Positions 1 to 5,940 of a stretch of 5,940 nt of DNA are shown here, piece by piece. The notes below the pieces were generated by a model. It did not search any database. It was given only the letters and a program-made list of their open reading frames with translations, and was not told the origin of the DNA. The translations under genes and the position numbers were made by a program. The stretch is from contig MZGO01000045.1 of assembly GCA_002084985.1 (NCBI GenBank), positions 1-5,940 of the forward strand, in the 5' to 3' direction. The DNA comes from Thermotoga sp. 4484_232. Lineage in GTDB: Bacteria > Thermotogota > Thermotogae > Thermotogales > Thermotogaceae. Within the stretch, counting starts at the first letter, position 1, and each line of letters begins with the position of its first letter.

Positions 1-553
1 ACTCGTTGTGAAGGAGAGAGAGCTCAGATACACTCTGGAGAATATCGGTATGAAACCAAAACTCGTTGTTACAGATTCTCAGGTTGTTATGAAAGTCGTA
101 TCCGATATACCGGATGATGTGGAGCTCACAACGTTTTCGATCTTGGAATCGAGGTACAGAGGGGATCTGAGTTATTTCGTGGAGAGCGTGAAGAAAATAG
201 AGGAGCTTCAAGATGGTGACAAAGTGGTGATAATGGAGGGATGCACCCACAGGCCTTTAACTGAGGATATAGGACGTGTGAAGATACCAAGGTGGCTTGT
301 TAACCATACAGGGGCAAAGATCGAATTCAAAGTCATTGCAGGGAAAGAGTTTCCTGACGTTGAAGAGCTGGAAGGAGCAAAACTCATAATACACTGTGGA
401 GCGTGTGTTCTCAACAGATCGGCCATGATGAGAAGGGTTAGGATGTCGAAAAGATTGGGTATCCCCATGACCAATTACGGTGTTACGATCTCTTATCTCC
501 ACGGTGTTTTGGATAGAGCGATCAGAGTTTTCAAAAAGGAAGTGGAAGTGTGA
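1..553 (+). CDS. hydF: [FeFe]-hydrogenase maturation GTPase HydF (C-terminal part, 5' end outside window)
   Basis: HydF is the scaffold on which the H-cluster diiron subcluster is completed before transfer to the apo-hydrogenase. The frame is open to the left edge (the codons before the GTG at 8 read Leu-Val), so that GTG is internal and the N-terminal GTPase domain lies outside. The visible part has the middle dimerisation region and the C-terminal cluster domain. The family motif CxH...HCxxC is intact: Cys in EGCTHRP (codon 242-244) and both Cys of HCGACVLN (395-397, 404-406). The 51- and 3-residue spacings equal those of T. maritima HydF Cys302, Cys353 and Cys356. That numbering implies a full length near 404 residues, with about 183 visible. 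The stop overlaps the aspA start. Family assignment is very secure; similarity to the Thermotoga protein is from memory. Confidence 0.96.
536..544 (+). promoter_or_regulatory. Ribosome binding site of aspA inside hydF
   Basis: AAGGAAGTG differs at one base from the ideal AAGGAGGTG and ends 5 bases before the GTG at 550. It supports that GTG as the aspA start and lies wholly within hydF codons, so ribosomes finishing hydF pass directly over it. Confidence 0.75.
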
Positions 554-1926
554 GAATTGAAAAAGATTACCTTGGAGAGCTCGAGATAGATGATGAGGTG
601 TACTACGGCGTTCACACGAAGAGAGCCCTTTTGAATTTTCCAGAAACGGGCGAGAAGATGGACGAAAGGTTCATATGGGCTTATTTCATGGTGAAAAAGG
701 CATGTGCCATTCTGAATGGAGAACTGGGATACATCAATGAGAAGATAAGGGATGCTATAGTGAAAGCGTGCGATGAATGGAAGGAGCTCAGAAAACACGT
801 TGTTGTCGATCCTCTTGTTGGAGGTGCTGGAACGTCCATAAACATGAACATAAACGAGGTCATCGCAAACAGAGCTACGGAAATCCTTGGAGGGAAAAAG
901 GGAGAATACCTGGTTCATCCCATAGACCATGTGAACCTTCACCAATCCACGAACGATACCTTTCCAACGGCTGCGAAGATCTCTGTTATCGTGAGACTCA
1001 GAGAACTCATCGAAGGTGTGATAAAGCTCCAGGAGGCTGTTCAAGAGAAGGAAAAGCAATTCTACAGTATAAGAAAACCTGGAAGAACTCAACTCATGGA
1101 TGGCCCCCCCATAATGTTGGGACAGGAATTTGGAGCCTTTGCCGACGCACTGGCCAGAGACAGGTGGAGACTTCACAAGGTTGAGGAGAGGATCAGGAGT
1201 GTGAACATAGGAGGGACAGCCATAGGGACAGGAATAGGAGCTCCGAAGGATTTCATACTCAAGATAACTGAGAAAGTTAGGGAAGTGACGAAGGTGAAAA
1301 TAGCGAAAGCTGAGAATCTGATAGACGCTACACAAAACTGGGACGTTTTCTCAGAGATCCATGGTCTTTTGAAATCGCTCGCCGTGAACCTTTACAAGAT
1401 ATCGAACGATATAAGACTCCTCTCAAGTGGCCCGAATACTGCGATAGGTGAGCTCATCCCTCCCAAAGTTCAGGCAGGAAGTTCCATAATGCCTGGAAAA
1501 ATAAATCCTGTGATACCAGAGTATGTGATGCAGCTCTGTCATGTTGTCTTTGGAAACGACGTCATAATAACCCATTGTTGCTCTCTTGGAAACCTGGAAT
1601 TGAATCAATTCGCTCCCGCCATCGTTCATTTCACCCTGAAATCATTGAAACTTCTGAACAAAGCTTGCCTTTCACTCAGGGAATACGTTTTGAAGATAGA
1701 AGCTAACGCCAAGCGATGCGAGGAGAATCTGAAGAGATCCACATCGAATCTCACACCACTCATAAAAATATTCGGATATGAAGAGGTTTCAGAGGTCATC
1801 AGAAAAACGAATTGGGATTTCGCAAAGACCTTGAAAATTTTAGCGGAGAAACATGACATGTCCTATGATGAACTTTTGAAAAGATTGAATCTGAGGAAAA
1901 TGACAGGCCTTGGATATGCTCTGTAA
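550..1926 (+). CDS. aspA: Aspartate ammonia-lyase (aspartase), fumarase/aspartase superfamily
   Basis: Predicted to convert L-aspartate to fumarate and ammonia in the cytoplasm; the family forms tetramers. It has 458 residues (E. coli AspA has 478) and the N-terminus aligns from residue 1 with aspartases (RIEKDYLGE...YYGVHT). Conserved blocks are GGAGTS (91-96) followed by NMN and NEV, HQSTND (131-136), GRTQL (178-182), and the superfamily signature [10 protein letters not shown] (310-319). By alignment with the mobile catalytic loop of the family, Ser311 is the likely base, with Lys317 and Asn319 contacting substrate. GTS instead of the fumarase GTQ, and NPVIPE instead of NPTQxE, favour aspartase. 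Two blocks look fumarase-like: TNDTFPTA (134-141) and GNLELN (347-352). DGPP (184-187) replaces the usual DAxP. The start is fixed by the ribosome site and the GTGA overlap with hydF. The activity is likely but the mosaic residues leave some doubt. Confidence 0.9.
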
Positions 1927-2006
1927 AAGTTTCAAAATTCAGTGAAAAGCTATGTGGTGAGAAGATATAAGCATATACTGAAGAATAATCGATAGAAATC
2001 GGGGAT

Positions 2007-2033
2007 AATCTTCAAAAATGGATTTTGATGATT
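2007..2033. promoter_or_regulatory. 27-bp imperfect palindrome, candidate operator of the TetR-type regulator
   Basis: Arms AATCTTCAAAA and TTTTGATGATT match at 10 of 11 positions around a 5-base centre (ATGGA). It lies about 100 bp before the regulator start and its right arm covers the proposed -35 element, a typical place for a TetR-type operator. It could instead form an RNA hairpin at the end of the aspA transcript, but the stem is A+T-rich and the nearest T run (2043-2048) is 9 bases downstream, so a terminator is less likely. Confidence 0.45.
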
Positions 2034-2053
2034 TGTTGGTAATTTTTTAATAT
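2025..2053 (+). promoter_or_regulatory. Candidate sigma-70-type promoter of the regulator operon
   Basis: TTGATG at 2025-2030 and TAATAT at 2048-2053 are separated by 17 bases; each hexamer matches 4 of 6 consensus bases. Transcription would begin near 2060, giving a leader of about 70 bases before the regulator start. This is the best-spaced pair in an A+T-rich gap, where chance matches are common. It overlaps the palindrome at 2007-2033. Confidence 0.4.
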
Positions 2054-2115
2054 ATCTAGATGGTGATTCAACTATTATTTTTTGCCTATTTATTGAGAAT
2101 TGATTCATCTTACCT

Positions 2116-2124
2116 AAGAAGGTG
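2116..2124 (+). promoter_or_regulatory. Ribosome binding site of the tandem TetR regulator
   Basis: AAGAAGGTG, one mismatch to AAGGAGGTG, ends 6 bases before the ATG at 2131. It decides the start in favour of this ATG over later in-frame methionines such as codon 16. Confidence 0.75.
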
Positions 2125-2130
2125 TAAAAA

Positions 2131-3297
2131 ATGAGAATACAATCAGAGAATCTGAAAAAGAATGTAAAGGAAAGAATGCTGGAAGCAGCTGAGCAACTTT
2201 TCGCCGAAAGGTGTTTCAGTGATGTTTCCATCCTCTCGATAACGAGAAAAGCCAACGTCAGCAACGGATCGTTTTATAGATATTTCTCTTCTAAAGAAGA
2301 TATTCTGAAGGAAATTGTTGAAGAAGCTTTCAACAGGCTCGATGTTTCGTTGAAGGTACGAGGAAAGTGCTTGGAAAGTAAATTGATGAGATTGATAGAG
2401 GACTACCTATATTTCGTGGAGGATAACACTCTCCTGTGCAAAGTTCTCCATGAGGCGGAATACATAGAAACGAGTATCTTTAAAAATCTGAAGAGGATTC
2501 TCATGGGGAAACTATCTGAAATTGGTTTTAAAGCTGACGAAACCGTTTTCTGGTTTTTCTGGGGATCTATAAGGTTTTTTGCAGTATGGTCCTATTTTTG
2601 GAAGAAAAAGACCATAGATGAAGATAATTTCAGAGATCTTATGGATTTCCTATTCCATGGTGTGGATCCTGATCAGCATCAACTCGATTTGGGAGTCTTC
2701 AATGTCACCATAGAGCCTGTTGAGCTTGAACAAGATACCACGAAGATGAAGATACTTCAAAGTGCCGAAAAGCTTTTCGGTGCTTTTGGATACAAGAAGA
2801 CACAGATCTCAGATATAACGAAAAATGCCGGATTCGCTCAAGGTACCTTCTATCTCTATTTCAAAACGAAGCAGGATGTGTTGAAAGAACTCGTCATCAG
2901 AACTAACAAGGCTTTTCGAAAAACATTAAAAAACGTGATATCCAATTTCAAGGATAGAAGAGATGCGGAAATAGCAGGATATTACGCCTTTCTGAAATTT
3001 TTTAGAATGCATCCCGATATGTACAAAATCGTTCGAGAAGCGGAATTCGTGATACCTGAAACGAGCCTTTGGTATTACGAGAAAATTCATCAAAGTTATC
3101 TGAAACCGCTGAAGGAATCCATGGATAAGGGGCAACTGAGGCTGATCAAACCTGAAAACCTGGCAGTTTTCCTCATGGGTATCGGTCACTTCATGGGAAT
3201 GGAGTTGATCGTCTTCGAAAAACACTCTGAAGAGGATTTCAAAAAATTTTTGATGGAGCTCTCTCCAACTCTTTATAAAGGCATCAAGGGGGGATGA
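2131..3297 (+). CDS. Tandem (double) TetR-type transcriptional regulator
   Basis: Predicted DNA-binding repressor that senses a small ligand. At 388 residues it is about twice the usual TetR length (near 200), and it contains two complete units. Unit 1 has a TetR_N helix-turn-helix at about residues 14-60 (ITRKANVSNGSFYRYF, then SSKEDIL). Unit 2 has one at about 205-251 (ITKNAGFAQGTFYLYF, then KTKQDVL). The two align without gaps at an offset of 192. Each is followed by its own helical C-terminal domain with a matching HEAEY/REAEF motif (107-111 and 302-306). Unit 1 also has a segment with 11 aromatic residues in 18 (140-157). There is no frameshift or internal stop, so it is a true single-chain protein. 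It opens an operon with CoA-transferase, thiolase and dehydrogenase, its stop one base before the next ATG, which suggests autoregulation and a ligand from acyl-CoA or short organic acid metabolism. The ligand is inference. Confidence 0.9.
   Translation: MRIQSENLKKNVKERMLEAAEQLFAERCFSDVSILSITRKANVSNGSFYRYFSSKEDILKEIVEEAFNRLDVSLKVRGKCLESKLMRLIEDYLYFVEDNTLLCKVLHEAEYIETSIFKNLKRILMGKLSEIGFKADETVFWFFWGSIRFFAVWSYFWKKKTIDEDNFRDLMDFLFHGVDPDQHQLDLGVFNVTIEPVELEQDTTKMKILQSAEKLFGAFGYKKTQISDITKNAGFAQGTFYLYFKTKQDVLKELVIRTNKAFRKTLKNVISNFKDRRDAEIAGYYAFLKFFRMHPDMYKIVREAEFVIPETSLWYYEKIHQSYLKPLKESMDKGQLRLIKPENLAVFLMGIGHFMGMELIVFEKHSEEDFKKFLMELSPTLYKGIKGG
3286..3293 (+). promoter_or_regulatory. Ribosome binding site of the CoA-transferase gene
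   Basis: AAGGGGGG sits in the last codons of the regulator, 5 bases before the ATG at 3299. It favours this start over the in-frame ATG at 3323, whose nearest purine run (GGGG around 3306) is too far away. Confidence 0.6.
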
Positions 3298-3298
3298 A

Positions 3299-4594
3299 AT
3301 GAAGTGGGGAAAAGAATATGAAATGAAAAAAGTGAGTATTGAAGAGATCCTTAGAATTCTTAAACCCGGTATGACGATAGTTGCAGGTATGACACCCATG
3401 GAACCTCAACTTTTCCTTTCACATCTTCATAAAGCCAATGCTGATAACGTTTCTATTTTCACGTGTCTGAACATCAAAGACTACGATTTTTACCTTGACG
3501 AAGCTTACGAAGGAAGATTTATAAACAATTCCTGGTTCTATGGACCATCAAATCGAGAGGCCGTTAAGAAGGGTATTAAAACGGTTACCTACGTTCCAAA
3601 CAATCTTCATCAAGCTGGTACCAACCTGATATCCTCCAGGAAGATCGATCTTTTCGTTGGTGTTGCCTCACCTATGGACAAAAATGGTTTTCTCACGCTC
3701 TCTGCAAGTGTAGTTTATGAAAAAGATGTACTAGAAGCTGCCGAGATGGTAGTTCTTGAAGTCAATCCAAATGCTCCGAAGACACATGGTGATACTCACG
3801 TTCACATAAGGGATGTGGACTTTATTGTGGAGGTTGACTATCCTCTTCCTGAAATTTCCCCAGTTGAACCCACCGATGTTGAGAGGAGAATAGGGGAAAA
3901 CATCGCTAACCTGGTAGAAAATGGTTCCACGATACAGCTCGGAATAGGTGGGATACCGAATTCCGTTGCTTTGTTCTTAAAAGACAAAAAAGATCTGGGG
4001 ATCCATACAGAGATGCTCACGGACTCGATGATAGATCTCTTCGAAATGGGAGTTATAACGAATAAGAAGAAAACGCTATGGCCTGGTAAATTCATCTGTA
4101 CTTTCGCTTACGGCTCTAAAAAAATGTACGAGTTCATAGATGACAACCCCGCCGTTCTCTTTTTAAGAGGTAGGTACGTTAACAACCCATACATCATCGC
4201 TCAGAATGAAAAGATGGTGAGTATAAACACGGCGATCATGGTGGACCTCACAGGAAACGTTTGTTCAGAAGCCGTAGGTACAAGACATTACAGTGGAACA
4301 GGAGGACAACTCGACACCCACAGAGGAGCGGTGATGAGTCGTGGAGGGAAAGGAATAATCGCTTTGAGATCCACAGCCAAGAATGGTACAGTGTCGACAA
4401 TCGTTCCCTTGCTTCCAGAGGGATCTCCTGTGACCGTTCCAAGGCAAGATGTAGATTATGTGGTAACAGAATACGGAGTGGCGCATTTACGAGGTAAAAC
4501 TGTCAGAGAAAGGGTGCTGGAGCTCATCAACATAGCCCATCCAGATTTCAGAGGTTTTCTCAAGAAGGAAGCTCGGAAAATTGGATACCTGTGA
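3299..4594 (+). CDS. CoA-transferase, acetyl-CoA hydrolase / 4-hydroxybutyrate CoA-transferase family
   Basis: Predicted to move CoA between an acyl-CoA (often acetyl-CoA) and a short carboxylic acid. Its 431 residues fit the family (about 430-440), with an N-terminal and a C-terminal CoA-transferase half. Visible motifs are GIGGIP (215-220), HTEM (236-239) followed by a conserved DSMIDL-type segment, SGTGGQLD (332-339), and EYGVAHLRG (391-399) followed by TVRERVLELINIAHPDFR. Glu238 in HTEM corresponds to the glutamate that forms the enzyme-CoA thioester in Clostridium 4-hydroxybutyrate CoA-transferase. Next to a thiolase and a dehydrogenase, acetoacetate or 3-hydroxybutyrate is a reasonable acid substrate; butyrate, 4-hydroxybutyrate and propionate remain possible, because the sequence alone does not separate these. 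The gene starts one base after the regulator stop. An alternative start at Met9 (3323) would remove eight poorly conserved residues. The family is secure, the substrate is not. Confidence 0.9.
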   Translation: MKWGKEYEMKKVSIEEILRILKPGMTIVAGMTPMEPQLFLSHLHKANADNVSIFTCLNIKDYDFYLDEAYEGRFINNSWFYGPSNREAVKKGIKTVTYVPNNLHQAGTNLISSRKIDLFVGVASPMDKNGFLTLSASVVYEKDVLEAAEMVVLEVNPNAPKTHGDTHVHIRDVDFIVEVDYPLPEISPVEPTDVERRIGENIANLVENGSTIQLGIGGIPNSVALFLKDKKDLGIHTEMLTDSMIDLFEMGVITNKKKTLWPGKFICTFAYGSKKMYEFIDDNPAVLFLRGRYVNNPYIIAQNEKMVSINTAIMVDLTGNVCSEAVGTRHYSGTGGQLDTHRGAVMSRGGKGIIALRSTAKNGTVSTIVPLLPEGSPVTVPRQDVDYVVTEYGVAHLRGKTVRERVLELINIAHPDFRGFLKKEARKIGYL

Positions 4595-4599
4595 GGTGA
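4593..4599 (+). promoter_or_regulatory. Ribosome binding site of the thiolase gene
   Basis: GAGGTGA overlaps the CoA-transferase stop codon and ends 4 bases before the GTG at 4604, supporting that start and coupling of the two genes. Confidence 0.7.
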
Positions 4600-4603
4600 A
4601 AGC

Positions 4604-5809
4604 GTGAAGGATGTTTTCATACTTGGTGCCAAAAGGACCCCCATTGGAACCTTTGGTGGATCTTTGAAGGATATCCCAGCCCCCAAGCTAGCGGCTTTGG
4701 TAATTAAAGAATCTTTGAAGCAGGCAAAAGTCTCCCAGGAAGAAGTGGATGAGGTCATAGTTGGAAACATCCTGATGGCAGGACAAGGGATGGGACCAGG
4801 AAGACAGGCTTCGATCTATGCAGGAATACCTTCTGAGGTTCCCGCCTATACCGTTAACATGATGTGTGCAAGTGGTATGAAATCCATAATGATAGGTTCA
4901 ACAGACATCGCTCTGGGTGAGGCGGATCTGGTTGTTGCTGCTGGAATGGAGAACATGTCCCAGGCCCCTTTTTTGGTTCCATACAAAGTGCGATTCGGTG
5001 CCAAATTCGGGAATATGGAGCTTTTAGATCATATGATATGGGATGGCCTCAGGGACGTCTTCAACGGTATCCACATGGGGTTAACAGCGGAGGTGTTGGC
5101 AGAAGAATTCGAAATAACTAGAGAGGAACAGGATATGTTCGCTTATGAGAGCCAGATGAAGGCAAGGAAAGCCATAGAAGAAGGGAGATTCAAAGAAGAA
5201 ATAGTGCCAGTCGAAGTCGTTGAGAAGAAGGAGAAAAGAATTTTCAGTATCGATGAGCATCCAAGACCCAACGTGACTCTTGAGAAACTTTCAAACCTCA
5301 AGCCTGTGTTCAAAGAAGGCGGAACCGTGACAGCTGGAAACGCGAGTGGCATAAACGACGGGGCCAGCTCTGTTATTCTCGCAAGTGAAGAATTTGTCGA
5401 AAAGAAAGGGTTGAAACCTCTTGCAAGAATCGTGGCGTGGTCTCAAGCAGCTGTTGACCCTCTGAGAATGGGACTTGGCCCTGTTCCGGCAACCGAAAAA
5501 ATCTTGCAAAAAGCGAAACTCAGTTTCCAGGATTTAGAGCTCATAGAGTTGAACGAAGCCTTTGCCGCTCAGAGTTTAGCTGTTATTAAAAAATGGTGCG
5601 AGATCTTTGGCGTCTCCAAAGATTGGATCATGAGCAGATTGAACGTCAACGGTGGTGCAATAGCGCTGGGTCATCCCATAGGAGCGAGTGGAAACCGGAT
5701 AGTTGTAACGTTGATTTATGAGATGAAGAGAAGGAATCTGAAAATAGGGCTTGCAACTCTATGTGTTGGTGGAGGAATGGGTACATCCCTCCTGATTGAG
5801 ATGCTTTAA
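4604..5809 (+). CDS. Acetyl-CoA C-acetyltransferase (acetoacetyl-CoA thiolase)
   Basis: Predicted to catalyse, reversibly, 2 acetyl-CoA to acetoacetyl-CoA and CoA in the cytoplasm; thiolases of this class are usually tetramers. It has 401 residues, within the normal range. All catalytic elements are present: nucleophile Cys88 in MCASGMKS, NEAFA (317-321), His357 in GGAIALGHPIGASG, and Cys387 in CVGGGMG. HMG at 157-159 matches the HMG of acetoacetyl-CoA-specific biosynthetic thiolases such as that of Zoogloea, which favours a short-chain C4 substrate over long-chain beta-oxidation; the SCP-2 type is excluded by the full CxS/GHP/CxG set. The gap to the CoA-transferase is 9 bases and to the dehydrogenase 12, so the three enzymes should be made together. 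The equilibrium favours cleavage unless the product is removed, so direction depends on conditions. Common symbols for such genes are thlA or atoB; neither is assigned here because true orthology is unknown. Confidence 0.94.
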   Translation: MKDVFILGAKRTPIGTFGGSLKDIPAPKLAALVIKESLKQAKVSQEEVDEVIVGNILMAGQGMGPGRQASIYAGIPSEVPAYTVNMMCASGMKSIMIGSTDIALGEADLVVAAGMENMSQAPFLVPYKVRFGAKFGNMELLDHMIWDGLRDVFNGIHMGLTAEVLAEEFEITREEQDMFAYESQMKARKAIEEGRFKEEIVPVEVVEKKEKRIFSIDEHPRPNVTLEKLSNLKPVFKEGGTVTAGNASGINDGASSVILASEEFVEKKGLKPLARIVAWSQAAVDPLRMGLGPVPATEKILQKAKLSFQDLELIELNEAFAAQSLAVIKKWCEIFGVSKDWIMSRLNVNGGAIALGHPIGASGNRIVVTLIYEMKRRNLKIGLATLCVGGGMGTSLLIEML

Positions 5810-5818
5810 GGAGGTGAT
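5808..5818 (+). promoter_or_regulatory. Near-perfect ribosome binding site of the dehydrogenase gene
   Basis: AAGGAGGTGAT is an uninterrupted 11-base complement of the typical 16S rRNA 3' end. It overlaps the thiolase stop and ends 3 bases before the GTG at 5822. A GTG at 5820 is followed at once by TGA, so only the GTG at 5822 can be the start. Confidence 0.85.
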
Positions 5819-5821
5819 AGT

Positions 5822-5940
5822 GTGAGGCTCAAGGATAAGGTAGCGATAATAACAGGGGCAGGAAGAGGGATAGGGAAGGAAGCGGCTAGATTGTTTGCGA
5901 AAGAAGGGGCAAGGGTGATAGCATGCGATGTTATGGAGGA
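5822..5940 (+). CDS. Short-chain dehydrogenase/reductase, probably NAD(H)-dependent 3-hydroxyacyl or 3-hydroxyacid type (N-terminal part, 3' end outside window)
   Basis: Only the first 39 codons are visible. They start MRLKDKVAIITG and form the beginning of a Rossmann fold, with the SDR cofactor motif TGAGRGIG at residues 11-18. The second strand ends in VIACD, and Asp36 at that position is the residue that in classical SDRs binds the adenine ribose and favours NAD(H) over NADP(H). The catalytic Ser-Tyr-Lys lies outside. The start resembles FabG-type 3-oxoacyl reductases, acetoacetyl-CoA reductases and 3-hydroxybutyrate dehydrogenases. Position after CoA-transferase and thiolase supports a role on a C4 3-oxo/3-hydroxy compound, free or CoA-bound. 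The SDR family is certain; the substrate is inferred from context, and a sugar or alcohol dehydrogenase cannot be ruled out. Confidence 0.88.
   Translation, partial: MRLKDKVAIITGAGRGIGKEAARLFAKEGARVIACDVME

Follow-up and report, generated by a model that had tools for sequence, protein, structure and literature searches.

How does a TetR regulator act when both units of the usual dimer lie in one chain? TetR proteins usually act as dimers of chains, a habit that does not define membership of the TetR/AcrR family. The question is raised by a 388-amino-acid protein of Thermotoga sp. 4484_232, encoded in an open frame with an ATG start at 2131–3297 (forward strand) of a 5,940-nucleotide stretch (assembly GCA_002084985.1, contig MZGO01000045.1, positions 1–5,940; hereafter, the window). 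An earlier note, made from the letters alone, had described it as two TetR units in tandem. We propose, with a probability of about 80%, that it is a single-chain double TetR repressor that reads an asymmetric operator and is released by an acyl-CoA through its C half. The fusion very probably enables one molecule to recognize an asymmetric DNA sequence upstream of short-chain acyl-CoA metabolism genes.

Two units and one predicted fold

The Pfam family TetR_N (PF00440) matches the chain twice, and the halves alone score 52.4 and 50.9 bits against a curated cut-off of 24, which places both in TetR/AcrR. The helix-turn-helix units, residues 13–62 in the N half (2167–2316, forward strand) and 205–254 in the C half (2743–2892, forward strand), align without gaps at an offset of 192 residues (K13 corresponds to K205) and have unlike recognition helices, VSNGSFYRYF and FAQGTFYLYF. 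Each is followed by a C-terminal domain. That of the N half (residues 68–178; 2332–2664, forward strand) is fast-evolving, and that of the C half (residues 260–385; 2908–3285, forward strand) resembles the acyl-CoA-responsive regulator SaFadR. In the lone sequence these two domains show no significant similarity (as high a score is reached in 32 of 500 shuffles). When the N-half and C-half profiles of 87 double proteins are compared, the probability of homology is 100% for the whole half and 99.3% for the C-terminal domains only, against 1.4% for a reversed control; the whole unit, and not the DNA-binding head alone, was therefore duplicated. The tandem is thus borne out, and the chain has two complete, non-identical TetR units, the layout of double TetR-family regulators (double TFRs). 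Mean pairwise identity is 0.40 in the N head, 0.211 in the N domain, 0.47 in the C head and 0.341 in the C domain; G238 and Y241 of the C-half helix-turn-helix are invariant (87/87).

A single-chain structure prediction (predicted template modelling score, pTM, 0.92) packs the two units together in one Omega-shaped fold. The predicted model matches Mce3R of Mycobacterium tuberculosis (PDB 9b7y) over its full length, at 16% identity. According to the account in PMC11667970, each Mce3R chain reads one asymmetric site with two unlike heads, and the chains also homodimerize to place four heads on two duplexes. As far as that account goes, Mce3R and our regulator have in common two TetR units per chain, an asymmetric operator (predicted here), a lipid-metabolism regulon, two sites at the operator and an arginine following the conserved tyrosine of the first head. 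This arginine is R50 (2278–2280) in the window, in the place of Mce3R R53 as judged by the Y52/R53/K58 spacing in PMC11667970 and not by alignment. Mce3R differs in being mycobacterial, in having another operator sequence and in the length of its operator (25 bp). Its authors liken its units to KstR2 and Fad35R, whereas the C unit here is closest to SaFadR, which is far closer to the C half than is Mce3R. In its layout, its predicted fold and the asymmetry of its predicted operator, our regulator is of the double-TFR (Mce3R) kind, an assignment that does not place it by descent from Mce3R.

An asymmetric predicted operator

The predicted operator, TGAGAATTGATTCA (2094–2107, forward strand), is an exact match to the family consensus TGAGAnnTGATTCA, and its first base lies 37 bases before the start codon of the regulator. 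A second right half-site, TGATTCA, occurs at 2064–2070 (forward strand), 37 bases upstream of the operator's own copy, with the left half unmatched. The predicted site is non-palindromic, as in double TFRs, and this asymmetry agrees with the suggestion of the earlier note that unlike recognition helices go with different half-sites, as for one chain with two unlike heads.

We compared the window with loci from a contig scan; with the single regulator sequence the scan returned no relative, and with an alignment it returned 350, the best 80 of which form the 80 loci, so that counts on them do not describe a random sample. For the window and nine Thermotogota loci, an expectation-maximization motif search of their upstream regions returned GnGAnAAnTGATTCA with a log-likelihood of 65.0, against 35–40 in six sets of resampled controls, which preserve neighbour-base frequencies only roughly. 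The same core emerged from 12 regions of seven Kosmotogaceae-like loci (66.5 against 40–46 in five resampled sets) and from 13 regions of 12 spirochaete loci (64.9 against 43–47 in five resampled sets). Every set included regions without a good site, and the good spirochaete sites come only from L054, L062, L064, L066, L067, L068 and L080.

Exact copies of the consensus number 33, in 28 of the 80 loci (875,424 bases); three resamplings gave 0, 1 and 0. Twenty-one of the 33 lie outside called open reading frames (ORFs), in the 5.6% of bases that are non-ORF; 16, in 15 loci, come from loci not used for motif finding, many of them mutually close relatives. Across 34 whole genomes the exact pattern occurs 34 times, in 23 genomes (reversed control, 2), and 28 of these copies fall in double-TetR loci. 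Of the remaining six, four are internal to unrelated ORFs. Another (L083) lies immediately 5' of a liv cluster that is unlinked, and the last (L084) falls in the 5'-open portion of an ORF called as KAS-III-like, whose short contig encodes a Liv-binding protein as well.

In some loci the site occurs as a direct pair at an exact 25-base spacing, with a single mismatch in one or both copies (L011, 5139–5177; L013, 1473–1511; L014, 5046–5084; L015, 5144–5182; L017, 99–137), before a KAS-III-like gene or, in L013, at its called start. Such spacing could reflect cooperative binding of two chains.

Head and site may covary. Where the N head has R50, 23 of 25 sites carry G at position 4; where it has another residue, 15 of 30 do (p = 0.001). 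After collapse to 25 protein groups the contrast is 11/12 against 7/13 (p = 0.07). The residue with the highest mutual information with the site is Q225, in the C half. The variable base of the left half goes together with R50, G46 and N45 of the N head but not with the two C-head residues tested, a pattern that only hints at a pairing between the N head and the left half-site.

Regulon, ligand and mode of action

One base separates the regulator stop from the start of a CoA-transferase gene (3299–4594, forward strand), which is butyryl-CoA:acetate CoA-transferase-like with a score below the equivalog cut-off. An acetyl-CoA C-acyltransferase (thiolase) gene follows at 4604–5809 (forward strand) in the same apparent operon, and the three genes are likely to form an operon headed by the regulator. 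Where this CoA-transferase is the next gene, it overlaps the regulator by 4 bases in 11 of 22 loci. Because the predicted operator lies just upstream of the regulator gene, the protein would repress its own operon of regulator, CoA-transferase and thiolase. Upstream, the window holds the end of hydF (2–553, forward strand), an aspartate-ammonia-lyase-like gene (550–1926, forward strand) and a gap of 204 bases (1927–2130); although this gap is the expected operon start, a sigma-70 promoter scan of 1850–2200 found no match.

Among the 80 loci, many of which are cut by contig ends, neighbours include a KAS-III-like synthase (51), Liv permeases (44), a Liv-type binding protein (37), ATP-binding cassette (ABC) ATPases (37), CoA-transferase (36), a FabG-like short-chain dehydrogenase/reductase (33), an alpha/beta hydrolase (32), thiolase (26) and acyl-CoA synthetase (12), names that rest on one or two members each and that in several cases denote large superfamilies. 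In relatives, control would also extend to the KAS-III-like synthase, the FabG-like reductase, the alpha/beta hydrolase and the Liv-type ABC transporter. A further member, a 373-amino-acid two-headed protein with 29% identity (L090, 5992–7113), is encoded on a plasmid of the fusobacteriote Cetobacterium somerae (NZ_CP143321.1). It sits between a CoA-transferase, FadX-like and unlike the type in the window, and a thiolase, followed by a reductase, a MaoC dehydratase, an acyl-CoA dehydrogenase and EtfBA, a cluster that by its gene content is a full butyryl-CoA pathway. Site-like sequences precede the CoA-transferase (one and three mismatches) and the thiolase (two mismatches), as counted with no resampled control. 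Because the Cetobacterium double TetR lies in this pathway, we propose that the ligand is probably a short, C4-like acyl-CoA, a guess by analogy.

What the C half might sense is suggested by SaFadR (FadRSa, Saci_1107; PDB 6el2 and 6en8), described in PMC6449355 as a single-unit, homodimeric repressor that in its lauroyl-CoA structure contacts the ligand through R73, K77, R86 and R132. R73 corresponds to R263 in the C half (conserved in 81 of 87 double proteins) and R86 to R276 (83/87); their N-half counterparts, D71 and L81, fall in variable columns. As only the C half conserves these CoA-contact arginines, it is likely to sense acyl-CoA, and the N half is unlikely to do so in the same way. 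Bacterial TetR-type FadR proteins (Bacillus and Thermus; PDB 3whb, 5gp9 and 3ang) share the fold and, according to PMC6449355, acyl-CoA-responsive control of fatty-acid genes, and differ from our regulator in being single-unit homodimers, with CoA-contact residues that are not homologous to those of SaFadR.

By analogy, the regulator would work like Mce3R and most likely sense like SaFadR. The two fused units would pack against each other within the chain, as a pseudo-dimer that gives each chain one Omega-shaped TetR fold, and the unlike heads would read one asymmetric operator; an acyl-CoA from the pathway would bind via the C half, and the protein would leave the DNA. The earlier note had opposed a monomer on one site to a dimer on two. 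The asymmetric predicted site favours reading by a single chain, and the opposition itself falls away, as Mce3R is described as doing both. A stable four-headed dimer would not refute single-chain reading, because the chains of Mce3R, in that account, read one site each and homodimerize.

A different architecture would be a parallel homodimer, in which N units pair with each other and C units likewise, so that two symmetric TetR dimers tied together read two palindromes. TetR units normally homodimerize, and several loci have two sites, including the five with 25-base spacing. However, exact palindromes in the 875,424 bases number 0 for the right half and 2 for the left, a chance level judging by resampled DNA; the single-chain model has a high pTM; and for Mce3R this packing was tested, with its two units found packed on each other (PMC11667970). 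We regard the parallel homodimer as highly improbable. Only a little less improbable is an activator, or an architectural regulator that loops DNA: two distant sites lie in one divergent region in L064 (2298 and 2515) and in L068 (6760 and 6974), and the authors of PMC11667970 propose looping for Mce3R. By contrast, the site in L006, L008, L009 and the Cetobacterium plasmid directly follows a TATAAT-like (−10-like) element, as read by eye, and because it abuts that element a bound protein would block initiation of transcription; repression is also how the FadR-type relative SaFadR is described as acting (PMC6449355).

Single-chain reading might also be combined with a second ligand sensed by the N half, which would let the operon integrate two signals. 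In favour of this, the C-terminal domain of the N half is retained in full and evolves faster than that of the C half, as it might under changing ligand demands. A lost sensor fits the fast evolution equally well, the N half lacks conserved CoA-contact arginines, and the single ligand-binding domain of Mce3R is described in PMC11667970 as lined by both units. We consider a second ligand unlikely, and the two full ligand-binding units envisaged in the earlier note are not upheld.

Several points weigh against our proposal of a single-chain repressor released by a short acyl-CoA. In 31 of 78 double rows (77 loci plus the window), no site between genes comes within two mismatches of the 15-base consensus; L001 and L003 carry GGTAATnATGATTCA and L002 no clear site. 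An asymmetric site alone is no proof of single-chain reading, because the homodimer SaFadR uses a 16-bp site of dyad symmetry termed 'semi-palindromic' (PMC6449355). The fit to Mce3R is loose (root-mean-square deviation 5.2; Foldseek template modelling score 0.61, deviation 7.9). The C half does not conserve the SaFadR contacts K77 and R132, and the C4 ligand is a guess because SaFadR, as described, ignores acetyl-CoA and responds increasingly with chain length, longer acyl-CoA releasing it best.

Duplication and distribution

The history of the two units was followed in a quickly built tree that takes in 44 single-unit proteins along with the N and C halves of 87 double proteins. Many of its forks are unsupported, several deep supports are below 95, many branches are long and long-branch joins were reported. 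In this tree, 86 of 87 N halves group, as do 78 of 87 C halves, and 40 of 44 single-unit proteins fall on the C-half side. This topology fits one old duplication, with the N half diverging afterwards. A separate fusion in each lineage is rejected for most members, because all N halves but one (86 of 87) group away from the C halves. In P0077, the exception, the N and C halves pair together, apparently through a similar duplication that happened later and independently; the C halves of P0067, P0069, P0070, P0072, P0073 and P0075 stand beside single-unit proteins.

In single-unit Armatimonadota, near-consensus sites lie at the starts of the regulators' own called ORFs (L069, 4936–4949, TGACAAGTGATTCA; L075, 6993–7006, TGACAGGTGATTCA). 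These sites suggest that a semi-symmetric operator may predate the duplication.

A protein search gave 133 matches; among the 120 listed plus the query (121 proteins), 79 have two heads (78 of at least 340 amino acids and one partial chain) and 42 a single head (41 below 280 amino acids and one of 322). Both units lie in one frame in 77 of the 80 loci, and three Armatimonadota loci (L069, L073 and L075) have one unit each. The closest named homologue among the matches listed shares 94% identity across 76% of the chain and comes from a Thermotogaceae metagenome-assembled genome. Among 103 Thermotogota genomes, 72 have a match at ≤1e-20 and 31 have none; 67 of the 72 carry a full-length chain, mostly in one copy per genome, and the remaining five comprise two with a partial chain (G067 and G081), two with two pieces on two contigs (G038 and G046) and one with a single unit (G122). 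The earlier note had named a sequencing error that hides a stop between the halves, or two separate genes, as what would undo the tandem. Both units stay in one chain in homologues of 94–99% identity and in more distant ones down to ~26%, which, together with the full-length chains of Thermotogota, rule this out.

Loci are labelled Thermotogota, Spirochaetota, Caldisericota, Coprothermobacter, Bipolaricaulota/Acetothermia, Acidobacteriota and others. Fused TetR switches are already known from mycobacteria and relatives, with 204 double TetR proteins predicted in Actinomycetes (cited in PMC11667970), and the double TetR described here looks like a separate, widespread family. Among the titles listed by a literature search that was weak in subscription papers and covered double TetR proteins and TetR regulators of this group of bacteria, accounts of double TetR were confined to work on Mce3R, and none treated this family, its operator or its regulon. 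The family extends double TetR beyond Actinomycetes to the groups named above and to a Fusobacteriota plasmid, and its likely regulon and predicted, conserved operator are open to testing.

More tentatively, at slightly less than even odds, this may be a phylum-spanning family in which labour was split after one duplication, the C half serving as acyl-CoA sensor and conserved TGATTCA head, and the N half as a non-sensing, fast-evolving second head for the other half-site. Such proteins would be hemi-liganded TetR switches by nature, because all signals would enter via one half, and their asymmetric operators would hold a direction that no homodimer can read. They would offer a natural system for a TetR switch with only one of two halves able to bind inducer, and a possible source of asymmetric operators for gene circuits.

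Two spirochaete loci carry two relatives of the double TetR each, on opposite strands with one gene between them (L049, 6980–8119 and 9334–10461; L072, 4180–5307 and 6446–7618). Two family members have one in-frame TAG each, at G082:C95:3731–4891, counted among the 67 full-length chains, and at G061:C43:132208–133329.
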